From Candidatus Cloacimonetes bacterium HGW-Cloacimonetes-3 (GTDB lineage Bacteria; Cloacimonadota; Cloacimonadia; Cloacimonadales; Cloacimonadaceae): a stretch of 48,264 nucleotides of DNA. The stretch spans positions 1 through 48,264 of the forward strand of contig PHBO01000017.1 of NCBI GenBank assembly GCA_002840645.1. The letters are read 5' to 3'. Below are positions 11,693 to 34,626 of this stretch, piece by piece (position 1 is the first letter of the stretch; every line of letters starts with the position of its first letter). Both the position numbers and the translations under genes were made by a program. The notes below the pieces were generated by a model that saw nothing but the letters and a program-made list of their open reading frames with translations, did not search any database and was not told where the DNA came from.

Positions 11693-12664
11693 TTAGAGCT
11701 TGTTGATAATATCTATTAGTTCTTCTTTATTGATTTTGGTGAAGTCCACCTTCAGAAACAGGTTCCTTTCTTTGTCTTCGATGCTTTTTATCTGGTCTTC
11801 TGAGTCTCCTTTCAAACACTTCACTTCGTAGGCAATTACTTGCTGGGCAAAGCCCTTTACATCGATGTGAAGCGGATCGGAGCACTCTAACAAATCGCGT
11901 ACATAACCCCATGTTTCGTGGCTGATTAGGATTTGATCCTCTGCGGCATGAGCCGAAAGCCTGGCGGCAAGGTTAACGGGACTGCCGATAATCGTGTAGT
12001 CCATGCGTTCGGAAGAGCCGAAATTGCCGACATTTACGAAGCCGGTGTTGATGCCCATTCGTATTTTTAGAGGATAAGGGTAGCCCAGTTCGAACCATGT
12101 TTTTTGCAGTTCACCCAAGCGATCACGCATTTCCAGAGCCATGGATACACATTGCCGGGCATGCGTATAATCATCGGCAAAATCCGGATCACCAAAGAAA
12201 ACCATGATCGCATCGCCAATGTATTTATCCAGTGTTCCGTTGTGTTTGTTAACGATATTGGTCATTTCTTCCAGATATGAATTTAGAATAATAGAAAGTG
12301 ATTCACTCTCCATATTGTTGCTATGGGCAGAGAAGTCCTTTATGTCGGAGAAAAAGATAGTTAGTTTAATGCGTCTGGTTTGGTTCAGTTCTCCTCTTTC
12401 ACCGCCATGGGTTATCTTCTTGAAAAGAGGTGGGGATACGTAGCGGCTAAGCCTTTCGAGCAGTTTGAGGGTGCGCCGCTGCTGTTTATCGCTAAGCCTC
12501 GTTAGGTTAAAGAAGTTATTCAGAATTCTAATATAAGAATCAAGCAGTTCCCGATAGTCGCTAATCTTGATTGAGCCACTTGCTTCGTTATTCGCCAAGC
12601 TCTCTTTAGCTTTATCGATCAGCTCGCGTTCAGCCTTGAAAACGTCATCAATGTGCGAAGTCAT
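11693..12664 (-). CDS. Class III adenylate/guanylate cyclase in a SiaBC operon
   Basis: A 323-residue soluble protein with a class III cyclase catalytic domain from about residue 95 to 275. The two metal-binding aspartates are in FFSDIKDFSAH and YIGDAIMVFFGD. The purine-selecting lysine precedes YIGD, and the DYTIIGSPVNLAARL block carries the catalytic Asn and Arg. The K/D-T pattern favours ATP as substrate, making cAMP the likely product. The N-terminal 95 residues are helical and may be the regulatory or dimerisation part. It starts 6 bases after the SiaC-like gene with an AGGA site, so it is the last gene of the SiaB-SiaC-cyclase operon. In Pseudomonas the equivalent slot is filled by the diguanylate cyclase SiaD, which suggests that SiaC here controls this cyclase. 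Confidence 0.88.
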   Translation of the reverse strand: MTSHIDDVFKAERELIDKAKESLANNEASGSIKISDYRELLDSYIRILNNFFNLTRLSDKQQRRTLKLLERLSRYVSPPLFKKITHGGERGELNQTRRIKLTIFFSDIKDFSAHSNNMESESLSIILNSYLEEMTNIVNKHNGTLDKYIGDAIMVFFGDPDFADDYTHARQCVSMALEMRDRLGELQKTWFELGYPYPLKIRMGINTGFVNVGNFGSSERMDYTIIGSPVNLAARLSAHAAEDQILISHETWGYVRDLLECSDPLHIDVKGFAQQVIAYEVKCLKGDSEDQIKSIEDKERNLFLKVDFTKINKEELIDIINKL

Positions 12665-18684: not shown

Positions 18685-21600
18685 TTAGGTAAGTTTCTTA
18701 TAGGTTTCGTATCTTTCCTTGAAGAATACGCCTGCTATCTCATTTAGCTCTTTAGCGCGTTCAGGGAAGATGTTTTTTAAGCCGGAGTAACGCTTCTCGG
18801 CATCCATGAATTCCTGCACGCTGATGGTAGGTTCTTTGCTATCCAGAGTGAAGGGGTTCTTGCCTTGCAGCTTGTTTAGCGGATTGTAGCGGTACAGCAG
18901 CCAGTATCCGGCATCCACGGCAAGCTTTTCGTGCTTTTGGCTCATGCTCATATCGATACCGTGCTGAATGCAGGGAGCATAGGCGATAATGATGGCGGGT
19001 CCGGGATAAGCTTCCGCTTCCTGAATCGCCTGCATCGCCTGGTTCTTGTTGGCACCCATGGCAATGGACGCTACATACACATAGCCGTAGTTCATCATCA
19101 TCATGCCAAGGTCTTTCTTGCTGGTGCCTTTACCGGATTCGGCAAAGCGGGCAATAGAGCCCATGGGGGTAGATTTTGATGCCTGACCGCCGGTGTTGGA
19201 ATACACTTCGGTATCCAGCACAAAGACGTTTATGTTATGGTTGGAAGCCATCACGTGGTCCAGACCGCCATAACCGATGTCATAAGCCCAACCGTCACCG
19301 CCGATCGCCCAGATGGACTTCTCGATAAGGTAATCCTGAAGCTCGATAGCACGGCGCATCAGCTTGGCACAGCCTTCGCAGGCGGTTTCCATGGCCTTGG
19401 GGAGCATATCTTTCAGTTTGGCTGCATTATCCTTGGCAGGAGCATCCACGGCGTCCCAGGCTGCTAAACGGGCGCTGATGGTTTCCTTCAAAGCAGCATC
19501 AATGTTCTTTTCCATCAGGCGTTCAAGAGCAAGCTTGAGGAGTTTGCGGTGGGAACGAACCGCCAGGCGCATGCCATAGCCGTATTCCGCATTATCTTCA
19601 AAGAGGCTGTTTGCCCAGGCAGGACCCTTGCCGTCTTTGTTTTTGCAGTAAGGTATTGTGGGGAATGTTCCGCCCCAAATGGAGGAGCAACCCGTAGCAT
19701 TGGCAATTATCATACGGTCGCCAAAGAGCTGGGTAAGTAGCTTAATATAAGGGGTTTCGCCGCAGCCGGCGCAGGCACCGGAGAACTCCAGCAGGGGCTG
19801 CTTGAACTGGCTGCCCTTAACTGTGCCTTCCTTGAAGTTTGCCATCACGTCGCTGGGCAGAGCATCGAAGTATTCGTAGTTGGCTTGTTCGCCCTTGGCG
19901 CGTTCGTCTTCGATGGGACTCATCACCAATGCGGCTTTGGGGCATTCGTTCACGCATACTCGGCAGCTTTGGCAATCGTCTATATAAATCTGAATCTTGT
20001 ATTGGTAGCCTTCGGCACCGGTAGCCTTAAGAGTGTTAAAGCTTTCCGGTTTGCCTTTCAGGTCTTCATCTTTGGCAAGTTTGGCACGGATTGCGGCATG
20101 AGGGCATACGAAGGAGCATTGGTTGCACTGGATGCAGTTTTCTGAAACCCAATGCGGTACGGTGGCGGCAACGCTGCGCTTTTCAAGCTTGGCAGTACCG
20201 GTAGGTACATAGCCGTCCAAAGTCATTTCGCTAACTTTAATCTGGTCGCCCATTTCTCGCATGATCGGCTCTATCACCTGATTGGTGAAGTCGTCCATAC
20301 CATCCGGCACCAGCTTTTTCTTGGCAGTGTTACAGGCAGGCAATGTGGCAGGAACATCAATCTGAACAAGAGCTTCGTTCACTTTATCCACGGCGTTGAG
20401 GTTCATCTGCACCACTTCATCGCCCTTGCGTCCGTATGTCTTTTTAATGCTGGATTTAATAAGTGCAATGGCTTCTTCACGTTCCAGAACCCCGGAAATA
20501 AGGAAGAAAGCGGTTTGCATAACAGTGTTTACCCGTCCGCCAAGCCCCACTGCTTCGGCTATTTTAAGCCCATCGATGTTAAAGAACCTTATCTTTCTTT
20601 CGATAATGGTTTCCTGCATAGAGCAGGTTAGCTTATCGAAGGCTTCAGCACTGTCCCAGTTTGAGTTAAGCAGGAACACGCCATTTTCCCTGATACCGCC
20701 AAGGATGTCGAATCTGCCAATGAAAGCCTGATTGTGGCAAGCGACAAAATCCTCGCGGGTAACCAGATACTGGCTGTGAATGGGGGTTTTACCAAAGCGC
20801 AGGTGGCTTCTGGTGGTACCGCCGCTTTTCTTGCTGTCGTACTGGAAATAGCCCTGGACATACATATCCGTGTGATCACCGATAATCTTGATGCTGTTTT
20901 TGTTAGCACCAACGGTGCCATCGGAGCCAAGCCCCCAGAACTTACATGATATAGTTCCGGCAGGAAGTGAACTGATGTTTTCATCGATGGCAAGGGAAAG
21001 GTGGGATACATCATCCTCTATACCTACGGTGAAGCCGTGGAAACCCTTGTTAGCCACGTGTTTGTAAACTGCAAGCACCATACTGGGGGTGAATTCCTTG
21101 CTGGATAAGCCATAGCGTCCGCCGATGATGTTCAGGTCGCTTCTGTCTTTAAGCGCGGAAACGATGTCCAAATATAGTGGTTCGCCGATAGAGCCTGGTT
21201 CCTTGGTTCTGTCCAGCACAGCGATGTGTTTCACGCTGACGGGCAGGGAATTGCGGAAGTCTTCCACGCTGAAGGGGCGGTACACCCGCACTTTCACCAT
21301 GCCAAGCTTCATATTGCGTTCTTTATTAAGATAGTCAATTGCTTCTTCGATGGTCTCACAACCGCTGCCCATGGCAACTATCACGCTTTCTGCCTGCGGG
21401 TGACCTACATAATCGAATAGCTTATAGCTGCGGCCAATAGTGTCGCCAACCTGCTTCATGGTCTCGGCAATAATGCCGGGAGCTTTATCGTAATAAAGAT
21501 TGCTGGTTTCGCGTCCCTGGAAATACACATCGGGGGCATGCTGACCCACTTTGATGCGGGGATTATCCGGGCTTAAAGCACGCATGCGGAAGGCTTCGAT

Positions 21601-22200
21601 CAATTCGCCATCATCCAGCTCTGCCATGGTTTCGTAATCTATCACATCTATCTTTTGCAGTTCGTGGCTGGTGCGGAAGCCGTCGAAGAATACGAGGAAG
21701 GGAATAGAGGTCTTCATCGTGGCAAGCTGCGCCACCACGCCGAGGTCCATAACTTCCTGAACGCCGTTGCAGGCGATAAGGGCAAAACCGGTGTTACGAG
21801 CGCTCATCACGTCGCTGTGGTCTCCGAAAATGGAGAGGGATTGTGCCGCCAAAGAACGGGCGGTAACGTAGAAAACGGTAGGCAGCATCTCGCCGGCTAT
21901 CTTGTGCATGTTAGGAAGCATCAGCATCAGGCCCTGCGAGGCTGTGAAAGTAGTGGTAAGCGCACCTGCAGAAAGGGAGCCGTGCACTGCGCCGGCAGCA
22001 CCGGCTTCGGATTGCATCTCGATCACATCGACCGTGGTGCCGTTAATATTCTTTCGTCCTTCCGAAGCCCAGGCATCGGAAAGCTCTCCCATTGTGGAAG
22101 AAGGGGTGATGGGGTAAATTGCTGCCACTTCAGCGAAAGCATAGGCAACATGCGCAGCAGCGGTATTGCCGTCCATGGTAGCTTTTTTTTGTGTAGCCAT
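18685..22200 (-). CDS. nifJ: Pyruvate:ferredoxin (flavodoxin) oxidoreductase
   Basis: An 1171-residue single-chain enzyme that oxidises pyruvate to acetyl-CoA and CO2 and reduces ferredoxin, central to anaerobic metabolism. Domain order is as expected. The N-terminal pyrimidine-binding domain contains YPITPSSTMGEL. The gamma-type domain follows, then two [4Fe-4S] motifs, CIQCNQCSFVCPHA near residue 686 and CQSCRVCVNECPKA near 741. The C-terminal TPP domain contains GDGWAYDIGYGGLDH near 965 and DTEVYSNTGGQASKSTP. CAGCGETPY is also conserved. The length is standard. An AAGGAG site precedes the ATG. The enzyme is oxygen-sensitive in most organisms, which supports an anaerobic host. Confidence 0.97.
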   Translation of the reverse strand: MATQKKATMDGNTAAAHVAYAFAEVAAIYPITPSSTMGELSDAWASEGRKNINGTTVDVIEMQSEAGAAGAVHGSLSAGALTTTFTASQGLMLMLPNMHKIAGEMLPTVFYVTARSLAAQSLSIFGDHSDVMSARNTGFALIACNGVQEVMDLGVVAQLATMKTSIPFLVFFDGFRTSHELQKIDVIDYETMAELDDGELIEAFRMRALSPDNPRIKVGQHAPDVYFQGRETSNLYYDKAPGIIAETMKQVGDTIGRSYKLFDYVGHPQAESVIVAMGSGCETIEEAIDYLNKERNMKLGMVKVRVYRPFSVEDFRNSLPVSVKHIAVLDRTKEPGSIGEPLYLDIVSALKDRSDLNIIGGRYGLSSKEFTPSMVLAVYKHVANKGFHGFTVGIEDDVSHLSLAIDENISSLPAGTISCKFWGLGSDGTVGANKNSIKIIGDHTDMYVQGYFQYDSKKSGGTTRSHLRFGKTPIHSQYLVTREDFVACHNQAFIGRFDILGGIRENGVFLLNSNWDSAEAFDKLTCSMQETIIERKIRFFNIDGLKIAEAVGLGGRVNTVMQTAFFLISGVLEREEAIALIKSSIKKTYGRKGDEVVQMNLNAVDKVNEALVQIDVPATLPACNTAKKKLVPDGMDDFTNQVIEPIMREMGDQIKVSEMTLDGYVPTGTAKLEKRSVAATVPHWVSENCIQCNQCSFVCPHAAIRAKLAKDEDLKGKPESFNTLKATGAEGYQYKIQIYIDDCQSCRVCVNECPKAALVMSPIEDERAKGEQANYEYFDALPSDVMANFKEGTVKGSQFKQPLLEFSGACAGCGETPYIKLLTQLFGDRMIIANATGCSSIWGGTFPTIPYCKNKDGKGPAWANSLFEDNAEYGYGMRLAVRSHRKLLKLALERLMEKNIDAALKETISARLAAWDAVDAPAKDNAAKLKDMLPKAMETACEGCAKLMRRAIELQDYLIEKSIWAIGGDGWAYDIGYGGLDHVMASNHNINVFVLDTEVYSNTGGQASKSTPMGSIARFAESGKGTSKKDLGMMMMNYGYVYVASIAMGANKNQAMQAIQEAEAYPGPAIIIAYAPCIQHGIDMSMSQKHEKLAVDAGYWLLYRYNPLNKLQGKNPFTLDSKEPTISVQEFMDAEKRYSGLKNIFPERAKELNEIAGVFFKERYETYKKLT

Positions 22201-23773: not shown

Positions 23774-24829
23774 ATGCAGTTTATAAGGGACTTACGGAAT
23801 CCTGATTCCGAATTGTCGAGAACCCTAAACAACCTCTACGATGGTGTTTATGTGGTAGATACCACTCGCACGATTCTGTTTTGGAACAAAGCAGCAGAAG
23901 CCATGACGGGCTACAGTGCAGCGGAAGTAGTGGGTAAAAGCTGTAAGGATGATATTCTGAATCATATTGACGAGAATGGAATACTGATGTGCAGAAGTTC
24001 ATGCCCTATCGTGAAAGCAATTGCCTGTGCGGGTACTTCCATAGCCAAGGTGTATCCCAAATCAAAATCCGGCAAGCGCTTCCCGGTGGAAACACATGTT
24101 TCCACTGTAATGGACGATAATGGAGCTGTGGTGGCAGCGATAGAAGTTTTCCGGGATATCTCCCATCAGGAAGAATATCGCATCATACAGGAGAAGTTTA
24201 ACGGCATTATTCGTAAATACGTGTCCACTGCCACCTATAGCGATATTCAAAGCAGGATAGCGGGAAACACTCCGGCGGGACAAACCCGCATTCTTGATCT
24301 CAGCGTGTTGTATCTGGACGTAGTGAATTTCACCGGCTTTGCGGAAAAGAACAGTGCTGATGCCACGGTGAGGCTGCTGAACGACCTGTTTGGTATATGT
24401 GACGTGATAACACGAGAGTGTTTTGGGGATATAGACAAGTTCATCGGGGATGCCATAATGGCTGTTTTCGTGGATGCCAACGATGCCGTGCGCAGTGCAA
24501 TAAAGATTCTGGAGACCGGAATCCCGGAACTGAACAAGATACGCGAAGAGAATAACGAAAGCTGTATCGCCATCAGGATAGGAATAAACTCCGGCTTGGT
24601 GCTTCAGGGCGATGTGGGGACGATTGACCGTAAAGACCTCACGGTGATCGGCGATACGGTGAATACTGCGGCACGGATAGAGAAATCGTCAATACCAAAC
24701 AGATTGATGATCTCCGAAGCTACGCTTGCACGGCTGGATGAAGAGCTACATCAGCTATTCGTTTTCCATCACGAAGTGGAACTAAAGGGGAAAAGCGAAC
24801 CGATGAAGCTGTTTATCCTGCAAATGTAA
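23774..24829 (+). CDS. PAS-domain class III nucleotide cyclase
   Basis: A 351-residue soluble protein. The N-terminal PAS domain (about residues 10-130) includes LYDGVYVVDTTRTILFWNKAAE and FPVETHVSTVMDDNGAVVAA and holds several cysteines (MCRSSCP, ACAG). A short linker leads to a class III cyclase domain (about 175-345). Metal-binding residues are LDVVNFTGF and KFIGDAIMAVF, and the catalytic block is KDLTVIGDTVNTAARIE. It probably makes cAMP in response to a small ligand, redox or light cue detected by the PAS fold. The AAAGGAG site supports the start. It is the second class III cyclase in the window and is unrelated in its regulatory region to that at 11693. Confidence 0.9.
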   Translation: MQFIRDLRNPDSELSRTLNNLYDGVYVVDTTRTILFWNKAAEAMTGYSAAEVVGKSCKDDILNHIDENGILMCRSSCPIVKAIACAGTSIAKVYPKSKSGKRFPVETHVSTVMDDNGAVVAAIEVFRDISHQEEYRIIQEKFNGIIRKYVSTATYSDIQSRIAGNTPAGQTRILDLSVLYLDVVNFTGFAEKNSADATVRLLNDLFGICDVITRECFGDIDKFIGDAIMAVFVDANDAVRSAIKILETGIPELNKIREENNESCIAIRIGINSGLVLQGDVGTIDRKDLTVIGDTVNTAARIEKSSIPNRLMISEATLARLDEELHQLFVFHHEVELKGKSEPMKLFILQM

Positions 24830-24873: not shown

Positions 24874-26988
24874 ATGGATGATATAAAGGGAATCAGAACT
24901 GTTATCCTGAATCAGGGAACACCTGAGGAACTTCGGGAAAAGGTGCGCCACTATTTTCACCAGACCTTCGCCATAGAAGAAAAGCTGTATGAGCTTATTG
25001 CCCATGAAGAAGGCTTCTACTTGCGACCGGATCCCCTCAGGCACCCGCTGGTGTTCTATCTTGGGCACACTACTGTTTTTTACATAAACAAGCTTCATAT
25101 GGCTCACATCATCAATAGCCGCATAAACCCGGAGTATGAATCCATGTTTGCTATTGGTGTGGATGAAATGAGCTGGGACGACTTGAACGAAACACACTAT
25201 AACTGGCCTACCATTCCCGAAGTACGGGCATACCGGGATAAAGTGCGGGGCTTGGTAGATGAGCTGATTAGCAATCTGCATGTGCCGGAGACCGGAATCA
25301 CCTGGGATAGTCCGTGGTGGGCGATTATGATGGGCATAGAACATCAGCGTATCCACCTGGAAACATCTTCGGTGCTGATAAGGCAGCTGCCCCTTGAAGA
25401 GGTGCGCCAGCTTGAGTTCTGGAGTATTTGCACCGAGAGCGGGGATGCACCGGTAAACGAACTGTTAGACGTTCCCGGCGCGGAGATTGTGCTGGGTAAA
25501 TCCTGGGATGACCCCCTCTATGGATGGGATAACGAGTACGGAAGTAAGCGCATTCAGGTAGATGGATTTAAAGCCTCACGCTTGCTGGTTTCCAATAAGG
25601 AGTATCTTGCTTTCGTGGAGGCAGGAGGATACGGAAGAAAGGAATACTGGAGCGAAGAAGGATGGGCGTGGCGAAATTATCGGCTATCTGAACACCCGCG
25701 CTTCTGGCAAAGTGATGAGGATGGCAACTGGATGCTACGCACCATCGCCAGCCTGATACCAATGCCCTGGAACCACCCTGTGGAAGTGAACTATCTGGAG
25801 GCTAAGGCTTTTTGTAACTGGAAGGCATTATGCACCGGGAAAGCCATCCGCATGCCTACTGAGGCGGAGTGGTATTGCCTGAGGGATGCACATATAAACA
25901 GCGATCAGCCCTATTGGGACAAAGCACCCGGGAATATAAATCTGGAACACTATGCCTCCACCTGCCCGGTAAACAAATTCAGCTTCGGCGATTTTTATGA
26001 TCTTATCGGGAATGTGTGGCAGTGGACAGAGACGCCTATATCCGCGTTTCCCGGCTTCAAGGTGCACCCGTATTATGACGATTTCACCGTGCCAACCTTC
26101 GATACCCGGCACAATCTGATAAAAGGCGGATCATTTATCTCCACGGGAAACGAAGCTATCCGCAGCGCACGTTATGCCTTCCGTCGCCATTTCTTCCAGC
26201 ATGCAGGCTTCCGCTATGTGGAAAGCACAAATCCCATCTCAAGCGAAAGCAGCCCTTATGAGAATGATCCCGAAATCCTGCCATGGTGTGCTCTGAACTG
26301 GGAAGAAAGCCCCTGGGGAGATAACTTCCACACCTCGCTAATCTGGAAGCTGCTGCCCTATCTTGACCAGGTGAAGCACGATTCAGCACTTAGCATCGGC
26401 TGCAAAACTGGACGCAGTGCCTTCGAACTGGCAAAATACTTCGCCAAGGTAAGCGGCTTGGATTCCACCACCAGGCTAATCCGTTTAGCCTCGCAGATGA
26501 AGGATGAAGGCTTCATACGCTACTACAATGTGGAAGAAGGCGATATCTTTGCCACAGCAGAGAAGAGCCTTGCAGATTATGGCTTGGAAGCCACAGCCGA
26601 CAGGTGCGAATTCTGGCAAGCCGACAGTGCAAACCTACCTGCGAAGTTTAGTGCCTATGACTTCATCCTTGCCGAAAACGTGCTGGAGCGAAGTGCTAAT
26701 CCGGTTCGCTTCTTGGAAGCAATACACTCAAGGCTAAATCCCGGAGCAGTGCTTGTGATAGCGGATGCGTATAACTGGAAAGATGAGCTTACTCCCGCAG
26801 CTAACCGCCTGGGCGGTTACCGTAAAGATGGTGAGCCACAGCGCAGCTTTCAGGGGCTTGCTGACATCCTGGAACAGCACTTCGAATTGCTTGCACCTCC
26901 CTTCGACCTCCTGCAGGGCTTGAGACATAGTGCCCGCAGCTGGGAATTGAAGCAGGTACAGGTGAGCGTTTGGAAGCTTAAATTATGA
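24874..26988 (+). CDS. ovoA: 5-histidylcysteine sulfoxide synthase / mercaptohistidine methyltransferase (OvoA-type)
   Basis: A 704-residue protein with the OvoA architecture. A DinB-like domain (about 20-170) holds the iron-binding HX3HXE motif HQRIHLE and an earlier LGHTTVFY histidine. The formylglycine-generating-enzyme-like domain (about 200-450) includes GNVWQWTETP and KGGSF. A C-terminal SAM methyltransferase domain (about 480-704) includes LSIGCKTGRSAFELA. OvoA joins histidine and cysteine with O2 to make the ovothiol precursor; a separate PLP lyase (OvoB) and the fused methyltransferase finish the pathway. No OvoB is visible here. The AAGGAG site and length support the start. It is coupled by ATGA to the secreted protein downstream. 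Confidence 0.88.
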   Translation: MDDIKGIRTVILNQGTPEELREKVRHYFHQTFAIEEKLYELIAHEEGFYLRPDPLRHPLVFYLGHTTVFYINKLHMAHIINSRINPEYESMFAIGVDEMSWDDLNETHYNWPTIPEVRAYRDKVRGLVDELISNLHVPETGITWDSPWWAIMMGIEHQRIHLETSSVLIRQLPLEEVRQLEFWSICTESGDAPVNELLDVPGAEIVLGKSWDDPLYGWDNEYGSKRIQVDGFKASRLLVSNKEYLAFVEAGGYGRKEYWSEEGWAWRNYRLSEHPRFWQSDEDGNWMLRTIASLIPMPWNHPVEVNYLEAKAFCNWKALCTGKAIRMPTEAEWYCLRDAHINSDQPYWDKAPGNINLEHYASTCPVNKFSFGDFYDLIGNVWQWTETPISAFPGFKVHPYYDDFTVPTFDTRHNLIKGGSFISTGNEAIRSARYAFRRHFFQHAGFRYVESTNPISSESSPYENDPEILPWCALNWEESPWGDNFHTSLIWKLLPYLDQVKHDSALSIGCKTGRSAFELAKYFAKVSGLDSTTRLIRLASQMKDEGFIRYYNVEEGDIFATAEKSLADYGLEATADRCEFWQADSANLPAKFSAYDFILAENVLERSANPVRFLEAIHSRLNPGAVLVIADAYNWKDELTPAANRLGGYRKDGEPQRSFQGLADILEQHFELLAPPFDLLQGLRHSARSWELKQVQVSVWKLKL

Positions 26989-28964
26989 AACACCTGCTGC
27001 TTGTTGCTACTGGTTTATGCTTGGTTTTGGGGCTGGGTGCAGAGCTAATTAGTATCGGCAGCGGGGCTGTGCTGAACCAGGGCTTGCCTATAGAACCGGT
27101 AGCCCGCTACAGCTATTCCCAACAGCTCTTTCTGGCTTCAGAGATAGGGGTGGGCGGCAGCATTGATGCCCTCCACTTTCAGTACAATGTCTCCAGCCAG
27201 CTATTTTTTGCCGGCAACAGGCAGCTAACGATATACCTTGGGCACACATACCGCACCTTTATGCAAAGCTGGGTTCCTGCCGATAGCCTTTTCCCTGTGT
27301 TTAGCGGGATGCTGTCCGAAGCGGATTTCACTTCCGGTTTACCGGGTAGCGGCTGGCTGCAAATAAGCCTTGCCACCCCCTTCCTGTACGACGGCATCCA
27401 CAATCTGGTGCTGGCAGTAGATGAAAACGGCTCGGATTACGGCAGCACGGCAGATGATTTCTTCTGTAGCAACACAGGTGTACAGCGTGCCATCCAATTC
27501 CAAAACATGAACATTAATCCCGATCCCCAAAGCCCTCCCACAACCGGCTTCGCCATCAAAACCCATCGCTCTAACCTGCGCATAAGCATGCAGCCGCAGC
27601 ATTATTACCCCGTGCAACCAAGCCCCGCCGATGCTGCCACAAATGTTCCCATATACCCTGATCTTCACTGGGTAAGCCTTTGTGACAGCTATGCCCTTTG
27701 GTTTGGCACGCGTGCGGATAGCCTTGCGCTGCTTGGCGATAACATCCCGGGACCCATGTGGCAACTGGCAGCGCCCTTGCAGTATAACCGGCAATACTTC
27801 TGGCAGGTAATGGGCTATCACAATGCAGAGACATTTCTATCCCCAATCTGGAGCTTCCAAACCACCGGAGAAGCCATATCCCCTCCTGAAAACCTCAGCG
27901 GCTTTTTCAACGGGCAAGGGGTGCAGCTTTCCTGGCAGGCTCCCCAAACAGGTATAGCCGGCAGCTACAAAGTGTATCGCAACTCTGCGCTCCTAAGTAC
28001 CACTACACAATGCTCCTGCTCCGATGTAAATGTAATAGCAGGCTTCACTTACTACTATCATATTACAGCCATAAACTCATCTTCCACCGAAAGCGGAGCC
28101 TCGAATCTCGTTAGCGTCACCATCCCCAACACTCAGCCGGATATGGTGATCAACCAGGGCTTTGAATCCGTAGCTTCCTTCACATCTATCATTCCCGGCT
28201 GGCAAATCATGGATATGGATGGTTTCAACTCCTGGATATGGAGTAGTTACTCTTTTCCCCACCAGGGCGAAGCTTATGGCTGGCTCTGCTTTTCTCCAAG
28301 TGAAACAACTCCCCCCATACCGGGCTATGCCCCCTATTCCGGTTCTAAAATGCTGATGGCAATGAGCAGCCTGATTCCTCCCAATAACGACTGGCTCATC
28401 AGCCCTGCTGTGCATCTGGGGCAAACGGCAATGCTTACCTTCAAAGCCTGCTCTGCCTCGGCAGATTTCGGATTGGAAAGGCTGAAAGTGCTTGTTTCAA
28501 CTTCCGGTACTACACCGGCTTCCTTCACCGCTATCAACCCCGGAAACTATCTTGCCGTTCCTGCACAGTGGACTGCCTACACCTACGATCTCTTTGCCTA
28601 CTCCGGACAGCGCATCCACCTTGCATGGAACTGTGTTTCTTTGGATGCATTTGCCCTGTTTTTAGATGATATTCAGCTTACCGGTGCCGGTGCCTGGGTG
28701 GGTGTAGAGGATTACATTCTGCCACCTTTGGCTTTTAGCAGCTTTCCCAATCCGGCAAAAAGCAGCTTTAACATCGTTAATAAAAACGGAGATCCCTTCA
28801 CTCTGGAACTATATGATCTCAAGGGACGCACTCTATATACTGGAAAAGATCTATTGGGCTTCAGCAGTACCAATCTATCAGCTCCGCTTCCCTCAGGCAT
28901 CTACTTTATGCGCATTCGCCAAAATGGTAAAAGCTGGGTGCTTAAACAGGTCATTGTTAAATAA
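26985..28964 (+). CDS. Secreted protein with FN3 and choice-of-anchor J-like domains and a T9SS C-terminal sorting domain
   Basis: A 659-residue extracellular or surface protein. The signal peptide occupies about residues 1-20. Residues 20-200 are an unassigned beta-rich domain. Around 295-385 is a fibronectin type III domain (LSWQAPQTGIAGSYKVYRN). Around 390-565 is a choice-of-anchor J or MAM-like jelly roll (NDWLISPAVHLG, LKVLVSTSG). The last 80 residues form a Por/T9SS sorting domain: FPNPAKSSFNI, LYDLKGRTLY and LPSGIYFMRI. That ending implies export by the type IX system. Its start overlaps the ovoA stop, but a functional tie to ovothiol is unproven. Confidence 0.85.
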   Translation: MKHLLLVATGLCLVLGLGAELISIGSGAVLNQGLPIEPVARYSYSQQLFLASEIGVGGSIDALHFQYNVSSQLFFAGNRQLTIYLGHTYRTFMQSWVPADSLFPVFSGMLSEADFTSGLPGSGWLQISLATPFLYDGIHNLVLAVDENGSDYGSTADDFFCSNTGVQRAIQFQNMNINPDPQSPPTTGFAIKTHRSNLRISMQPQHYYPVQPSPADAATNVPIYPDLHWVSLCDSYALWFGTRADSLALLGDNIPGPMWQLAAPLQYNRQYFWQVMGYHNAETFLSPIWSFQTTGEAISPPENLSGFFNGQGVQLSWQAPQTGIAGSYKVYRNSALLSTTTQCSCSDVNVIAGFTYYYHITAINSSSTESGASNLVSVTIPNTQPDMVINQGFESVASFTSIIPGWQIMDMDGFNSWIWSSYSFPHQGEAYGWLCFSPSETTPPIPGYAPYSGSKMLMAMSSLIPPNNDWLISPAVHLGQTAMLTFKACSASADFGLERLKVLVSTSGTTPASFTAINPGNYLAVPAQWTAYTYDLFAYSGQRIHLAWNCVSLDAFALFLDDIQLTGAGAWVGVEDYILPPLAFSSFPNPAKSSFNIVNKNGDPFTLELYDLKGRTLYTGKDLLGFSSTNLSAPLPSGIYFMRIRQNGKSWVLKQVIVK

Positions 28965-29294: not shown

Positions 29295-29747
29295 TTACAT
29301 GTCTGCGGTTAGTTCATCCGCATCAGGCACGTTGGGCAAATAGCCGTTTTCCACTGCATCGGCTATGCTGGCGATATCGCCGCCCAGGGTCTGAAGGTCG
29401 GTGTGAGTAACCGTAGCCAGATCGACGTGCCCTTCATCCAGTTTGGAAAACAGGAACATCATCTTAACAAAGATGGCAAAGGAGGTGGGGGCAAGCTTAC
29501 CCGCCGGCACCAGAGCCTGATACTTTCCGGCATACACCTTCAGGTCGTCCTTGTAACCTGTGGAGCAATCCCCGAATACGTTTGCCAGGTTTTTAATCTT
29601 CGCACCCATACTGGTGTTCTGGGTGGTTGTGCGTGGCATCACATACTTGCGTCCGATGCACAGGCTGCCATTGCGGTAGCTGCCATAGGTCATCTCGTCT
29701 GCGGTACCTGTGTAGGTTTTGATTCCGTACTTAAATCGTACTTTCAT
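29295..29747 (-). CDS. Uncharacterised 150-residue protein
   Basis: The protein starts MKVRFKYGIKTYTG and has a beta-rich first half (TYGSYRNGSLCIGRKYVMPR) and a helical second half rich in Ala and Asp. There is no signal peptide or membrane segment. An AGGAGAAGAA sequence precedes the ATG. With the 53-residue gene downstream it forms a two-gene unit. The basic N-terminus and acidic C-terminus could suit a small structural or nucleic-acid-associated protein, but I cannot assign a function. Confidence 0.65.
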   Translation of the reverse strand: MKVRFKYGIKTYTGTADEMTYGSYRNGSLCIGRKYVMPRTTTQNTSMGAKIKNLANVFGDCSTGYKDDLKVYAGKYQALVPAGKLAPTSFAIFVKMMFLFSKLDEGHVDLATVTHTDLQTLGGDIASIADAVENGYLPNVPDADELTADM

Positions 29748-29818
29748 GTTTCTTCTCCTGTCTGTTTTATGATAGGCATTTTGTTTTTCCGGAAAATCTT
29801 GCCTTCATAGTAGTGTGG

Positions 29819-29855
29819 GGGACAGAATTGGAAATTTGGGACAGATTTTGGATTT
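29819..29855. repeat. 18-19 base tandem duplication
   Basis: GGGACAGAATTGGAAATTT is followed directly by GGGACAGATTTTGGATTT, a diverged second copy. A related GGGGGACAAG occurs near 11602. Function unknown. Confidence 0.6.
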
Positions 29856-29964
29856 ATTTTTAGGGGAGCCCATAAAACACAGGCGGAAAGGTGGGATAAA
29901 TCTATCTATGTTAAGGGCTTAGGGGAGGGGAAAGTTTTTTTTGAGTTCTGGGGGTTTTGGAGTT

Positions 29965-30239
29965 GCATGCGTCTCGCATGCACTGGGAAAGCAGGCATCT
30001 TGCCTGTGTGGGTGAGAAAGTTAGCCGTTTTAACTGTTACATTGGAAGGAGAGAGGAGTGATGCGCGTAGTTATGAGAAAGGCGTAAAATGTGACGATTG
30101 CTGTACAGAGGCGTAGTCGTGACGACTACAGAACCAGTGCATTCGAGGACGCATGCAATTCCAATGCGGGGGTTGGCACCACCGGATTCATCCGGTTTTA
30201 AAACCTGCTTAACCTGCCTTTATGCCAGATAAATCTGGC
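29965..30239. repeat. Series of 6-7 bp perfect hairpins with 2-3 base loops
   Basis: The pairs are GCATGCG/CGCATGC (29965-29981, loop TCT), CAGGCA/TGCCTG (29992-30006, loop TCT), GTAGTCG/CGACTAC (30113-30129, loop TGA), ACCGGAT/ATCCGGT (30181-30196, loop TC) and GCCAGAT/ATCTGGC (30224-30239, loop AA). A weaker one (GACT/AGTC) follows at 30250. None has a U-tract. Confidence 0.65.
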
Positions 30240-30454
30240 GTTTCCGACCGACTGAAGTCTGTGTTCCAACACCTTGTCATTCCAGACTTGAACCGGAATC
30301 CAACATCAAAACTACCATAGAATGATGCGTGTAAAGTCGAATGGCTTTCACCCTATTGAATAACATAATGCCACTGAAAACGATAACCTTTCACATTAAT
30401 CCCACAGTAGCATTTCATTTGTCTATTGCATCCATTGTTAACACAGTCATAAGA

Positions 30455-31210
30455 CTACGACTGTGACGAAATCTCTTTGTAAGAAGCTATATCTAAGTTC
30501 GAAAGATACCTTAAGAACTTCTTAGACATAGGATGATAAGTAGCTATTGTCAATCCTCCAGCAAAGAAACCGCCCACTATAGGTACTGCTTTCCCAACCA
30601 ACTTCCCAAAACCCTCTTTTGTTAACTTTATGCCGATCCACTTAGCTATTTGCTTCGCTAGATTATAAAAGCCGAACTTCGTCAAGGCTAACTTAGGTAA
30701 TCGACGAGCTAACTCGTCCGCCAGCTTCTTGGAAAGTAGTTTCACGGCTGTCTCAGCTTGATGAGAACCAAACATAACACCTATGAAAACAATTAGCCTG
30801 CTCATAGTCTCATCATCAAGGTTGTCTTGATCAATCTCAAAATCTGGCCATCCCATAAGATATGCAAGTTTTTGAATGATTACTAAAACATGGAAGTAGT
30901 ATTGTGCTAAATCAGCTGGTATAGTGCCCGGAGCATATGGTAGTCCCGGTAGACCTAGACCGAAAGAGATTAAAGACACTTTTAGAGTGTGGAGTTTTAT
31001 TGAGCTTCTTGCTAGTTTTATTCTGAGGTTTAAATCGACTTTTCGCACTTCTACTGGATCTTTGACAATTACACGTAGAGTTGATAAAGTAAGACGTTTT
31101 GATAACTGGTTGTACAAGAAATCATCCCTTTTCACAACAACACCTGGCATTTTCATGGCAATCATTAGAGCTTTGTAAAACAGATTGTGTTTAATTACTT
31201 CGTTTGTCAT
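30455..31210 (-). CDS. EcsC-like family protein, last gene of the TIR operon
   Basis: A 251-residue protein. It shows KALMIAMKMPGVVVKRDDFL at the start, GLPGLPYAPGTIPADLAQYYFHVLVIIQKLAYLMGWPD in the middle, and a glycine-rich VPIVGGFFAGGLTIATYHPMSKKF near the end, a pattern I associate with EcsC-related proteins. Two hydrophobic stretches could touch a membrane. The ATG at 31210 has an AAGGAAA site and overlaps the preceding gene by 20 bases. Its role in the island is unknown; EcsC-type proteins do occur beside defence genes. Confidence 0.5.
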   Translation of the reverse strand: MTNEVIKHNLFYKALMIAMKMPGVVVKRDDFLYNQLSKRLTLSTLRVIVKDPVEVRKVDLNLRIKLARSSIKLHTLKVSLISFGLGLPGLPYAPGTIPADLAQYYFHVLVIIQKLAYLMGWPDFEIDQDNLDDETMSRLIVFIGVMFGSHQAETAVKLLSKKLADELARRLPKLALTKFGFYNLAKQIAKWIGIKLTKEGFGKLVGKAVPIVGGFFAGGLTIATYHPMSKKFLRYLSNLDIASYKEISSQS

Positions 31211-31685
31211 CAAGATTTTCCTTATTATTTAGAGATAGAATTAGGTCAATATACTGAGGAGAGAATGTTAACTCATTAATCTCTAGTCTACTCAGCGCAT
31301 GAGTTAGTGTATTGCTATGGTATTTTTTTAACAGTCTAAGTATATCAATTTCAATCATATTACCTTCGATTGAGAAAACTGCGATTTTTCTTTTACTCAA
31401 GAGATTTAAGATTTTGTCGCTGATTCCTCTAGTTCTAAAAGACAAATTGCATTTTTCAACGGAAGCAGTGTATGAAACATACTCAAGGTCAATACTCACG
31501 GGTATAGATAGTTTCTTGGAAACCCCATAATAAACCGTTAACTTAACACGATCATCTGAGCTTTTAACAATTAGGTCGACCACCCCTTTCATTTCAAAAC
31601 TAAGTAAAAAATCAGATACCATACTATCAGTGATCCGCAGTTTTAATTGTGATTCAAAAGGATGTTTTAAGATTAATTCTATCAT
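31191..31685 (-). CDS. Uncharacterised 164-residue protein in the TIR operon
   Basis: The protein begins MIELILKHPFESQLKLRI. It alternates short strands (VVDLIVKSSDDRVKLTVYYG, SIPVSIDLEYVSYTASVEKC) with a helical C-terminal third (EIDILRLLKKYHSNTLTHALSRL). It has no signal peptide, membrane segment or recognised motif. It lies 82 bases after the TIR gene and overlaps the EcsC-like gene. AT-rich codon use matches the island. Confidence 0.55.
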   Translation of the reverse strand: MIELILKHPFESQLKLRITDSMVSDFLLSFEMKGVVDLIVKSSDDRVKLTVYYGVSKKLSIPVSIDLEYVSYTASVEKCNLSFRTRGISDKILNLLSKRKIAVFSIEGNMIEIDILRLLKKYHSNTLTHALSRLEINELTFSPQYIDLILSLNNKENLDDKRSN

Positions 31686-31767
31686 ACTCTTTTTATCCTA
31701 TATCAGGTTTTCTTACTTACCAACCTTCACTTTTACACAGAACTAGATCGCATTGCTGCACTGTGTA

Positions 31768-32274
31768 CTATAACTCAAAACCCTTATATATCTGTTCAGG
31801 TAGATGATACTGACCTGTCTTTCCCAAAGACCTTTGTTTGCTTATGAATTCAAATGTCCACTCATTTAGGGAATGTTTAATTGGCTTCATTCCGAACTTT
31901 ATATGCAATGCTATATGTTTTTGAAGGATTGGTGGGCATAAATTAGTGTCCATTTCTTTCTTTCCATTTAAATTTGCACAGATTATTGGTATATCCATTT
32001 CTATTGCAGTTTCAATTTCCCACCTAACAAATTTGTGGAGATTTTTAGTATGCTCTCCTATTAGCAAAACGACGGATTTTGTATTGTTCAATCGTTCTCT
32101 TAGCCTTCTTTTAATTGTGTCTTCGGAACTAGTTTCCATGAGATTATTAAGATCATGGGCATTATGAAAATCGAAATCAATCTTATCGTGTTCTTTCCAA
32201 GCTTTCATGATAAGGTAATAATGCATATCATTATCTGCATCAAAAGCAACGTATGTTTTGTTACGGTAAGACAT
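31768..32274 (-). CDS. ThsB-like TIR-domain protein (Thoeris family, DUF1863-type)
   Basis: A 168-residue protein with the short TIR-like fold of Thoeris ThsB. It has a first strand KTYVAFDADNDMHYY, the helix LIMKAWKEHDKIDFDFHNAHDLNN, TIKRRLRERLNNTKSVVLLIGEHT, and FVRWEIETAIEMDIPIICANLNG. Glu86 in VRWEIE is the likely catalytic residue. In Thoeris, ThsB senses infection and makes a cyclic or conjugated ADP-ribose signal that activates ThsA. The ATG directly follows the membrane-protein stop (TAAATG) with an AGAGG site, so the two are translated together. No SIR2-SLOG or macro-domain ThsA is adjacent. Confidence 0.82.
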   Translation of the reverse strand: MSYRNKTYVAFDADNDMHYYLIMKAWKEHDKIDFDFHNAHDLNNLMETSSEDTIKRRLRERLNNTKSVVLLIGEHTKNLHKFVRWEIETAIEMDIPIICANLNGKKEMDTNLCPPILQKHIALHIKFGMKPIKHSLNEWTFEFISKQRSLGKTGQYHLPEQIYKGFEL

Positions 32275-32970
32275 TTAATCCTCTTTAGCGGGTTTTGGTA
32301 TTGATTGGCTTAAAATAATCACTAAAAAGATGAAAGAAACTATCTGCTGAGATGTTTGTAAATATAGTCCGAATGCATTAACTACCGATAGAGAAGAAGA
32401 TAATAGAAATGTGTTTGAAATGCTATACTGTAACACACTGTACAAACTCGCAGGAGTCCCGTTTTCCCATAGAATGTACCTAGCAAGTCCGTTCCCCAAA
32501 AGATAAGTATAACATAGAATATTAAATACAATAGCTAACATAAGGTTGGCAAATCTTCTTGTCTGCCAGTGAGAACAACTATCAGAGGGTTTCCTCCAAA
32601 CATGGTGATAAAAGTAAGTAAACACGTTCATGATGAGCAAATATATGACTATCTTTAGAATGATCGCATTGTCTGGCATAAGCATAAACAGAATCAAGAA
32701 GACAAACTTCACAACTACAAATATATCTATCGCCCAATTGTATGCAGCTTTTCTACTGATGTCCTTCATGATGAATTTGCATAATTGGTAAAAAATGAAT
32801 TTGAACCACTCAACAAAGTTGATTAACCAAAGTAAGTTAACTACCCCAGAGAAGATAATGTATATAAAACCGTATTCAGAACGTTTCTTATATTCCTCAC
32901 TCAGCTTATCAAACACTTCGGCAATGGTATTGATGATCTTCGTATGTGTGGATGTTTTTTTCATCTTCAT
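32275..32970 (-). CDS. Multi-pass membrane protein, candidate effector of the TIR operon
   Basis: A 231-residue protein. A short cytosolic N-terminus precedes hydrophobic segments near residues 33-55, 78-98, 101-120, 141-162 and 208-223. The stretch 177-205 between the last two, SLYSVLQYSISNTFLLSSSL and following, could be a re-entrant loop like that of two-helix ion-channel pores, but no TxGYG filter is present. It begins inside the stop of the Zn-ribbon gene (ATGA) and ends against the TIR gene. That position suggests a membrane-damaging or channel effector controlled by a TIR-made nucleotide (inference). No ligand-binding domain is recognisable. Confidence 0.65.
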   Translation of the reverse strand: MKMKKTSTHTKIINTIAEVFDKLSEEYKKRSEYGFIYIIFSGVVNLLWLINFVEWFKFIFYQLCKFIMKDISRKAAYNWAIDIFVVVKFVFLILFMLMPDNAIILKIVIYLLIMNVFTYFYHHVWRKPSDSCSHWQTRRFANLMLAIVFNILCYTYLLGNGLARYILWENGTPASLYSVLQYSISNTFLLSSSLSVVNAFGLYLQTSQQIVSFIFLVIILSQSIPKPAKED

Positions 32971-33971
32971 ATCTTTTTGGAAAGCCCCATGGCTTCGATG
33001 CGGTTAATTAATCGCTGTTTCAAGTCCGCTTCATCTTTCCATAGGATGTGTTTAATATGACTTGTATCAAACTTCATATCTTCTTCTGTTCTATCTTCAC
33101 GACAAGTGAGAATCACAGGAATCCCAAGCCCATAAGCAAAGCCAGCTTCATAATAGACATTTTGGCTAGCATCCGTAACATCTGCAATAACAAATCTACT
33201 TTTCCGAATGCCGGCTATTATAACATCCGTAATGCTATTACCATGTTCATCATCCAGCGTTACATACGGAATAAGCCCACATTCAGATACTGCCGGAGCT
33301 ATAGCAGTGTCATAGATTTGCTTCATGGTTCCTCCTGTATCAAAATGAAAGGCTACAAATACTTGATTTGAATATGGGCTTTGTTCTTTTAGTTCCTGTT
33401 CTTTTTCCCACCCTTTCATTGTAAGCATTAATAACTCATCTGTTAGATGGAGTTTCCCTCCATTATCCATAATGGGATCGTCATTTTTACCCCGACCCTT
33501 AATATAACCTAACTCATAAGCGGATTTAATTATAAAACAAAAATCGGATTCATTCTTAGCGAAACAAATTGGATAGTCTTTGGAAGCATCAAATCGCACG
33601 AATTCAGATAATGAGGGTTGCTTGCTCGCGATATACTCAATTAACATATAAACTTGATCAAATGGTGTGGAAGGTAAAAAAAAGCCCTCCCTAAGATCGT
33701 CAATTGTTTGAACAATCTTTATGGTTTTACTGCCAGTATGTTCTCTGATCAATGAATGTTGTCTTAAATACCCAAGAAATTCTTGTTTACTGATTTGACC
33801 TGTTTCTAAGTTGTCAAATACCAAAGATCTGTTGATGTAAACAAGTCCACAGCATAGGCAATCCCCATGAAAGCATATTACAGGTTGTTCATGGCCATGA
33901 TTGGTCTGTACTGGAACAATTTTGATATCACAATCTGGTCTCCCACAAATTGGGCATTGTTTTTCTATCAT
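32967..33971 (-). CDS. Zinc-ribbon protein with nucleoside 2-deoxyribosyltransferase/TIR-like domain
   Basis: A 334-residue protein. The N-terminal cysteines (C6, C9, C14, C33, C38, C40, C41) form one or two zinc ribbons (CPICGRPDC, CFHGDCLCCG). A middle helical region (about 50-195) is unassigned. The C-terminal domain (about 200-334) resembles nucleoside 2-deoxyribosyltransferases and the related TIR fold: VFVAFHFDTGGTMKQIYDTAI, SRFVIADVTDASQNVYYEAGFAYGLGIPVILT. Glu275 in YYEAG is the expected catalytic glutamate. It may cleave a nucleoside or NAD-like molecule or bind a nucleotide signal. It is the first gene of the five-gene operon; the hsdS remnant lies just upstream. Confidence 0.72.
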   Translation of the reverse strand: MIEKQCPICGRPDCDIKIVPVQTNHGHEQPVICFHGDCLCCGLVYINRSLVFDNLETGQISKQEFLGYLRQHSLIREHTGSKTIKIVQTIDDLREGFFLPSTPFDQVYMLIEYIASKQPSLSEFVRFDASKDYPICFAKNESDFCFIIKSAYELGYIKGRGKNDDPIMDNGGKLHLTDELLMLTMKGWEKEQELKEQSPYSNQVFVAFHFDTGGTMKQIYDTAIAPAVSECGLIPYVTLDDEHGNSITDVIIAGIRKSRFVIADVTDASQNVYYEAGFAYGLGIPVILTCREDRTEEDMKFDTSHIKHILWKDEADLKQRLINRIEAMGLSKKI

Positions 33972-33983
33972 ATATACTCCTTA

Positions 33984-34175
33984 TCAACTCCACATCATAT
34001 CTATTCGCTCTTTGATTTTCAACTCGTAGTACGTAATTAGCTGTACGGACACACCAACCAGCTTTTGTTCGTGCTCTATTCGTTCTACTATCGCTTTTTG
34101 CGTTTGGTAGTCTGGTACCGGTATTCTAAACTGTTTGATTTCTACTAAATGCAAGTTAGTTACAGTTCCAGATTT
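33984..34175 (-). pseudogene. Fragment of type I restriction specificity subunit (hsdS C-terminus)
   Basis: About 63 codons in one frame end with TGA at 33984. The frame reads SGTVTNLHLVEIKQFRIPVP, then DYQTQKAIVERIEHEQKLV and YYELKIKERIDMMWS. This is the end of the second target-recognition domain and the conserved C-terminal helix of HsdS or an HsdM-HsdS fusion. There is no start codon context, and the upstream part is missing. It overlaps the end of the hsdR fragment in a different frame, marking a deletion joint near 34175. Confidence 0.8.
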
Positions 34176-34626
34176 TTAAATGGGCTTGCGCTTGTTTGGA
34201 AGTAAGTGGTTTGGCTTTCGTGGTATTGGACAAGCGCTTAAGGTCATTTTGGGTAGGGAACTTGATAATCAACTGTTCTGAGCTATGGTTTAAGTCCCAT
34301 AGATAGTGGGTTTCCCCATAGCTCATAATCACGTGCTTACATCTTTTAGCGATGGCATATTTCTCTGCTTGGTATTTGCCATCTAGAGGGTCTTTATCAT
34401 GTGATTTAGCTTCTAATACGGCAAGTGGGAAGCCTTTAGTATCTAAGAGCAAGTAATCGATGAAGCCTTTGGAGGCGGTCTCATAATCGTCCCCGATAGC
34501 AGATAAATCAACTGCGCCTTCTACAACTACGTTTGCCCTTCCGGTTATGTCGTCCAGAAGTATCCATCCAGCTTCTTTTAGCAAATCGTTAATATGTAAT
34601 CTTGCATTGGCTTCCTTAGATGCCAT
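34156..34626 (-). pseudogene. Fragment of type I restriction endonuclease (hsdR N-terminus)
   Basis: This frame gives 156 residues of the HSDR_N nuclease domain: HINDLLKEAGW, then GFIDYLLLDTKGFPLAVLEAKSH (the D and ExK of the PD-(D/E)xK site), and DGKYQAEKYAIAKRCKHVIMSYGETHYLWDL. A full HsdR has a further 600 or more residues with a DEAD helicase, all absent. The last few residues run into the hsdS remnant out of frame. The fragment could still be expressed, since a start and a GGGAT-like site remain, but the protein would lack its motor. Confidence 0.85.

Follow-up and report, generated by a model that had tools for sequence, protein, structure and literature searches.

OvoA in Cloacimonadota: a conserved, probably O2-dependent ovothiol enzyme in a phylum in which cytochrome bd and haem-copper oxidases were not found

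OvoA is the first enzyme in the synthesis of the antioxidant ovothiol, and the characterized OvoA enzymes are O2 dependent. In passages of PMC9103826, H170, H174, and E176 of E. tasmaniensis OvoA, which form the same HX3HXE motif as in the protein described here, are reported to be important as shown by mutation, and a passage of PMC10903977 gives Y417 of that enzyme the role of active-site tyrosine. PMC9103826, a 2022 review, also names, in the passage concerned, two anaerobic species with OvoA, and Proteiniphilum, another OvoA bearer, is described in a part of PMC12631010 as a facultative anaerobe. Cloacimonadota are placed mainly in anoxic habitats in a passage of PMC13082233, and a passage of PMC8542988 regards them as obligate but aerotolerant anaerobes of the oxic-anoxic interface, inferred from desulfoferrodoxin and catalase. 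OvoA was found over the model cut-off in 35 of 124 Cloacimonadota genomes. This count probably misses one genome or more, because an OvoA fragment of 272.6 bits, under the cut-off, lies at a contig end of another genome (G077:C47:7-504). No literature joining ovothiol and Cloacimonadota was found in a search that covered the older phylum names in part, and an earlier mention is possible in the 2021 survey of bacterial OvoA by Brancaccio, which reportedly lies behind the two-species statement of the review. Measured against the two species named in that passage (PMC9103826), the record of OvoA in anaerobes is widened to 35 of the 124 genomes of one uncultured phylum. What is new to us is the apparent spread and retention of OvoA across a phylum in which cytochrome bd and haem-copper oxidases were not found, not the protein. 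An enzyme that apparently needs O2 is kept at one locus, under purifying selection, in a phylum that gave no hit over the cut-off for either of these respiratory oxidase families, and the purpose of ovothiol becomes testable within one group, by comparing close relatives with and without ovoA at the same place.

The window, a DNA stretch of 48,264 nucleotides, is one entire contig of a 2.68-Mb assembly (97.5% complete) from a member of Cloacimonadota. Across the 300 residues compared, six OvoA loci named as Candidatus Cloacimonadota show full identity to OvoA from genomes of this phylum. Its ovoA gene (Table 1) encodes a protein with the domain order of OvoA, namely, DinB, FGE-type, and methyltransferase. 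The NCBIfam model for the N-terminal sulfoxide synthase equivalog domain (TIGR04344, ovoA_Nterm) matched residues 9 to 449 with 675.4 bits against a cut-off of 400, and that for the 4-mercaptohistidine N-methyltransferase domain (TIGR04345, ovoA_Cterm) matched residues 462 to 701 with 236.8 bits against a cut-off of 170; the Pfam methyltransferase match spans residues 501 to 633. The scores of the window protein with the EgtB model (TIGR03440, 176.5 bits) and the model of SenA, the selenoneine enzyme (NF041186, 168.6 bits), are far under the respective cut-offs of 360 and 420. The top solved protein by sequence is the bifunctional OvoA_Th2 (8khq; E value of 2.2e-236, residues 7 to 701), which shares the two-domain order over the full length, the metal ligands, the tyrosine, and 350 of 691 aligned residues with the window protein. 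8khq also ranked first among structures for the predicted model. Single domains of the model gave target TM scores of 0.93 to 0.96 with OvoM/OvsM and, for the N-terminal fold, 0.84 to 0.87 with the EgtB-IV proteins (8vig and 8vih); however, the latter lack a methyltransferase domain. Superposition of the full-length model on 8khq was poor (TM about 0.62), which we attribute to domain placement and to residues 404 to 426, which are badly modeled. The full OvoA domain order with HX3HXE iron ligands, as read in the original prediction, is thus borne out by NCBIfam, Pfam, 8khq, and alignment, and, judged from its sequence, the window protein is a true OvoA, a known kind of enzyme.

Table 1. Features of the window, with positions counted from its first nucleotide
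Feature	Position	Strand	Details
Second adenylate/guanylate cyclase-domain gene	11693-12664		On the same contig
Pyruvate:ferredoxin oxidoreductase	18685..22200	-	1171 aa; Pfam
PAS domain + adenylate/guanylate cyclase domain gene	23774..24829	+	44 bases upstream of ovoA
ovoA	24874..26988	+	704 aa, ATG start; bifunctional 5-histidylcysteine sulfoxide synthase / 5-thiohistidine N-methyltransferase; both OvoA models over cut-off, 8khq match, tree placement
DinB_2 domain	25006..25365	+	Residues 45-164, bearing H65, H157, H161, E163; Pfam
HX3HXE motif	25342..25362	+	H157-H161-E163
FGE-sulfatase fold domain	25456..26220	+	Residues 195-449; Pfam, 100 bits
Y401, active-site tyrosine position	26074..26076	+	Alignment; probably equivalent to Y417 in the E. 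tasmaniensis enzyme
C-terminal SAM methyltransferase domain	26257..26976	+	Residues 462-701; TIGR04345
T9SS-sorted secreted protein	26985..28964	+	659 aa; Por_Secre_tail + choice-of-anchor J; ATG overlaps ovoA stop by 4 bases
PADLOC candidate PDC-S30	30455-31213		GC 0.33-0.39 group
Thoeris ThsB	31768-32274		GC 0.33-0.39 group
Weak TIR effector match	32967-33971		GC 0.33-0.39 group
Weak type I restriction fragment	34156-34626

H65, H157, H161, E163, and Y401 are invariant in the alignment, in all 34 Cloacimonadota rows and in all 75 other OvoA rows. Y401 is also a tyrosine in both EgtB-IV rows, and its equivalence to Y417 is inferred, since E. tasmaniensis OvoA is absent from the alignment. Conservation among the 75 other OvoA rows reaches 97% or more in 167 columns; of these, 156 are retained by 90% or more of the Cloacimonadota rows, and 11 differ in more than 10%. 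The clearest changes are proline to glycine at residue 141 (18 of 34 rows) and tryptophan to histidine at residue 301 (11 of 34 rows, including the window). A changed active site in Cloacimonadota was rejected, as all of the metal and tyrosine positions checked are the same as in the 75 other OvoA proteins. In six gene pairs, dN/dS ranged from 0.082 to 0.202 for the whole of ovoA, from 0.071 to 0.168 for the synthase part, and, slightly higher, from 0.091 to 0.254 for the methyltransferase part, with synonymous sites near saturation (dS of 2.4) in the G000/G002 pair, which includes the window. By these ratios, ovoA is kept by purifying selection.

The neighborhood of ovoA is shared among relatives. 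A family of T9SS-sorted proteins of about 660 amino acids is encoded directly behind ovoA on the same strand in 19 of the 25 loci of the window's family, beyond which the locus of G024 is cut by a contig end. A DEAD/DEAH helicase gene comes next in 11 Cloacimonadota loci. The secreted-protein gene is also present in relatives without ovoA, mostly still with the helicase behind it, although this does not hold for G001 and G003, which belong to the same genus as the window. Because the gene persists in this order where ovoA is absent, a functional link between OvoA and the secreted protein is weakened, and the link may be only positional. The fold of the secreted protein was predicted with a pTM of 0.40. 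On the upstream side, a PAS/cyclase gene similar to that of the window precedes ovoA in G002. In one genus, a divergently oriented hydF (assigned from a Pfam match of the protein in G014) is found on this side whether ovoA is present (G018, G019, G020, and G022) or absent (G014, G015, G017, and G026). Two loci carry unusual copies. In G093 (L124 7418-9543), ovoA is split by frame into ORFs of 562 and 157 amino acids, by assembly error or decay. In G009 (L148 2572-3984), a 471-amino-acid OvoA has no methyltransferase domain and the secreted-protein gene starts immediately after it, so G009 may stop at 5-thiohistidine.

The evolution of OvoA in the phylum was addressed with a tree of 111 rows, which was rooted on two EgtB-IV proteins on long branches and held 8khq as its sole characterized OvoA, without Erwinia or trypanosome OvoA and without other EgtB types. 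In this tree, the window protein groups with OvoA and apart from EgtB-IV, and not with the non-ovothiol FGE/DinB enzymes that had been considered as an alternative placement. The 25 usable OvoA proteins from the window's family fall into a single clade (SH-aLRT of 99) in which genera stay largely together. The remaining nine Cloacimonadota rows diverge close to the base, and the Cloacimonadota label needs three changes on the tree. 8khq groups with an OvoA from Hydrogenimonas and lies outside the Cloacimonadota rows, and the OvoA proteins of Proteiniphilum and other Bacteroidota form separate clades. No OvoA over the cut-off was found in G001, G003, and G007, which belong to the same genus as the window and are 99% complete. 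G017 (L178 4866-4941) retains only the initial ~25 codons of ovoA, as a relic between hydF and the secreted-protein gene; the rest of ovoA is gone. The alignment of G017 with G022 covers the hydF start, the intergenic region, and the ~25 ovoA codons in 435 columns with 75% identity, with E values of 8e-76 at the DNA level and 6e-8 at the protein level. Relics were also sought in 17 further loci where ovoA does not immediately precede the secreted-protein gene, including that of G045, whose ovoA sits elsewhere. The best match there had an E value of 0.003; only the G017 match counts, because shuffled stretches gave E values of <0.01 in 7 of 54 cases. On a marker tree of the secreted protein and the helicase, covering 48 of the 49 family genomes (helicase in 35), ovoA presence changes 11 times, at least 8 of them on starred branches, and G017 falls inside an ovoA-bearing group. 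Read in this way, the G017 relic shows a loss at a shared locus, not a gain. Since there is a single OvoA clade for the family and a shared locus, we infer that repeated loss explains the distribution better than repeated gain; by tree and synteny, ovoA would have been in the family ancestor and then lost repeatedly, one of the losses being the deletion relic.

The original prediction had pointed out that no OvoB gene is nearby, which is right for this contig. The sole PatB-family C-S lyase (TIGR04350), the family proposed as OvoB, over the cut-off in the window genome lies on another contig than ovoA, upstream of dapD (C1:62989-64122; 474.7 bits against 340). Lyases over the cut-off are encoded in 76 of the 124 genomes, comprising 31 of the 35 with OvoA and 45 of the 89 without it; the association with OvoA seen over all genomes is gone within genera (p of 0.70). 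The OvoA-bearing genomes without such a lyase are G004, G011, G033, and G086, and in G004 and G011 a partial match falls just under the cut-off. The lyase gene is the same-strand upstream neighbor of ovoA in G079 and G082 and lies two genes upstream of it in G059, so that a dedicated OvoB is plausible in these three genomes. The lyase of the window genome is a candidate only, and a weakly founded one, because it lies upstream of dapD, the family occurs without OvoA as well (the 45 genomes above), and no link holds within genera.

The genome had been described as apparently anaerobic, with the pyruvate:ferredoxin oxidoreductase of the window as the mark. The oxidoreductase is there, and the description holds for the families searched. 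Cytochrome bd subunit I was matched in none of the 124 genomes of the phylum, and the same search matched 10 of 14 control genomes. COX1 of the haem-copper oxidases was over the cut-off in none of the 124, with one broken match below the threshold and 8 of the 14 controls matched. The class I ribonucleotide reductase (RNR) small subunit was found in 1 of the 124, a genome with 8% contamination, and in 7 of the 14 controls. The window genome, at 97.5% completeness, has no match to cytochrome bd I, haem-copper oxidase, or class I RNR, and aerobic respiration by the two oxidase families is therefore not encoded as far as this search reaches. A search for oxygen-defense genes, which had also been suggested, found superoxide reductase in 106 of the 124 genomes and the flavodiiron-type ODP domain likewise in 106 (104 over the cut-off), with both present in the window genome. 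The ODP domain is no specific mark of O2 reduction, because it was also matched in 12 of the 14 control genomes. Catalase was found in 28 of the 124 genomes, some of which rest on partial matches (G008, G036, G041, G043, and G048), and was not matched in the window genome. By these tests, Cloacimonadota cells appear to be equipped to meet O2, not to respire it with cytochrome bd or haem-copper oxidases.

The occurrence of catalase follows that of OvoA. Catalase was found in 16 of 35 genomes with OvoA versus 12 of 89 without it (Fisher p of 0.00025), and the permutation p values were 0.0008 within genera, 0.012 within families, and 0.003 within genera in the 74 genomes that are at least 90% complete. 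One genus contributes much of the signal, with catalase in 6 of 8 OvoA-bearing genomes and in 0 of 5 others. Within genera, Cas1, used as a neutral patchy control, and the oxygen-defense gene MsrA showed no association with OvoA (p of 0.95 and 0.67, respectively). An association of superoxide reductase with OvoA over all genomes is gone within genera. The marker tree yielded eight independent pairs in the window's family, of which an average of 3.9 had catalase changing in the same direction as OvoA and 0.5 in the opposite one; the sign test on these eight pairs was not significant (median p of 0.25). The direction is consistent but only suggestive. In the same suggestive sense, the association points to O2 exposure.

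We consider it probable that the protein is a true and functional OvoA that depends on O2 in the usual way and that aerotolerant anaerobes have retained, and its use would most likely fall at times when O2 traces enter the cell. As in characterized OvoA, the N-terminal iron site would join cysteine to histidine through their side chains, with the small amounts of O2 that reach the cell. The PatB-type C-S lyase from the other contig may then release 5-thiohistidine, which the C-terminal domain, going by its family, would convert with SAM to ovothiol A. Ovothiol may act beside superoxide reductase, the flavodiiron-type protein, and, in some relatives, catalase. The original prediction had offered three options, of which ovothiol as a protection against O2 traces fits best, with superoxide reductase and the ODP domain widespread and neither oxidase family matched; the link with catalase adds to it in a suggestive way only. 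Its second option, an enzyme that works differently, finds no support in the conserved columns or at the active-site positions. The third, recent acquisition, is contradicted by the single clade of the family, the locus that relatives share, the composition of the gene, and the deletion relic in G017. The patchy occurrence in 35 of 124 genomes, with the gene missing over the cut-off from three members of the window's genus, the frame-split copy in G093, and the relic in G017 could suggest a gene of recent arrival that is in transit or in decay. However, the family's 25 OvoA proteins form one clade in which genus groups are largely kept, the locus is the same in several genera, dN/dS is low, and the GC content, GC3, and codon use of ovoA agree with those of the core genes of the contig, from which three genes of the AT-rich stretch downstream differ. 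With the G017 relic indicating loss at a shared locus, recent acquisition is extremely unlikely.

It is also conceivable that some oxidant other than O2, for example hydrogen peroxide or a different electron acceptor, serves the enzyme in making 5-thiohistidine in the cell, so that ovothiol would be formed under full anoxia. Purifying selection on ovoA in a phylum in which the two respiratory oxidase families searched were not found would agree with this, as would OvoA in Geobacteraceae, Desulfobacterales, and Dysgonomonadaceae (among the 80 matches listed of 581), and a passage of PMC9103826 raised a possible alternative ovothiol pathway from two anaerobic species. However, the active-site positions checked are unchanged in comparison with the 75 other OvoA rows, the known O2-free routes to ergothioneine use different proteins, EanB and MES, according to a passage of PMC10903977, and OvoA tracks catalase, which suggestively points to O2 exposure. 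An O2-free route is accordingly rated as improbable, and the narrower claim of anoxic 5-thiohistidine formation by Cloacimonadota OvoA, with something else than O2 as the oxidant, as very improbable; if true, it would give oxygen-free life a route to ovothiol within a family characterized as O2 dependent. The main role may, alternatively, be something other than that of an antioxidant, the thiol serving as a signal, in metal binding, or as an acyl carrier, or the enzyme removing O2 and cysteine through thiol oxidation side reactions. The conserved neighbor is indeed a secreted protein and not a redox gene, a passage of PMC9103826 reports that OvoA oxidizes cysteine in side reactions, and PMC12631010, in the part concerned, sees little convincing evidence for antioxidant reactions under physiological conditions. 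The secreted-protein gene, mostly with the helicase, is nevertheless kept without ovoA, so this link is perhaps only positional, and conservation of the methyltransferase domain favors ovothiol A as the product; a non-antioxidant main role appears unlikely to us.

Among the 80 matches listed of 581, OvoA also occurs in the anaerobe-rich groups Geobacteraceae, Desulfobacterales, Dysgonomonadaceae, and Paludibacteraceae. In the same 80 matches, at least 11 loci have a member of one gene cluster one or two positions upstream of ovoA; the representative of this cluster, the sole member scanned, is a GNAT acetyltransferase, which resembles the published setting of a 5-thiohistidine N-acetyltransferase. 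The 34 Cloacimonadota loci have no member of this cluster close to ovoA. Immediately behind the ovoA pair, where the helicase gene stands in other genera of the family, the window contains a foreign-looking stretch (29295-34626). Its ThsB, PDC-S30, and TIR genes have GC contents of 0.33 to 0.39, versus 0.51 for ovoA.
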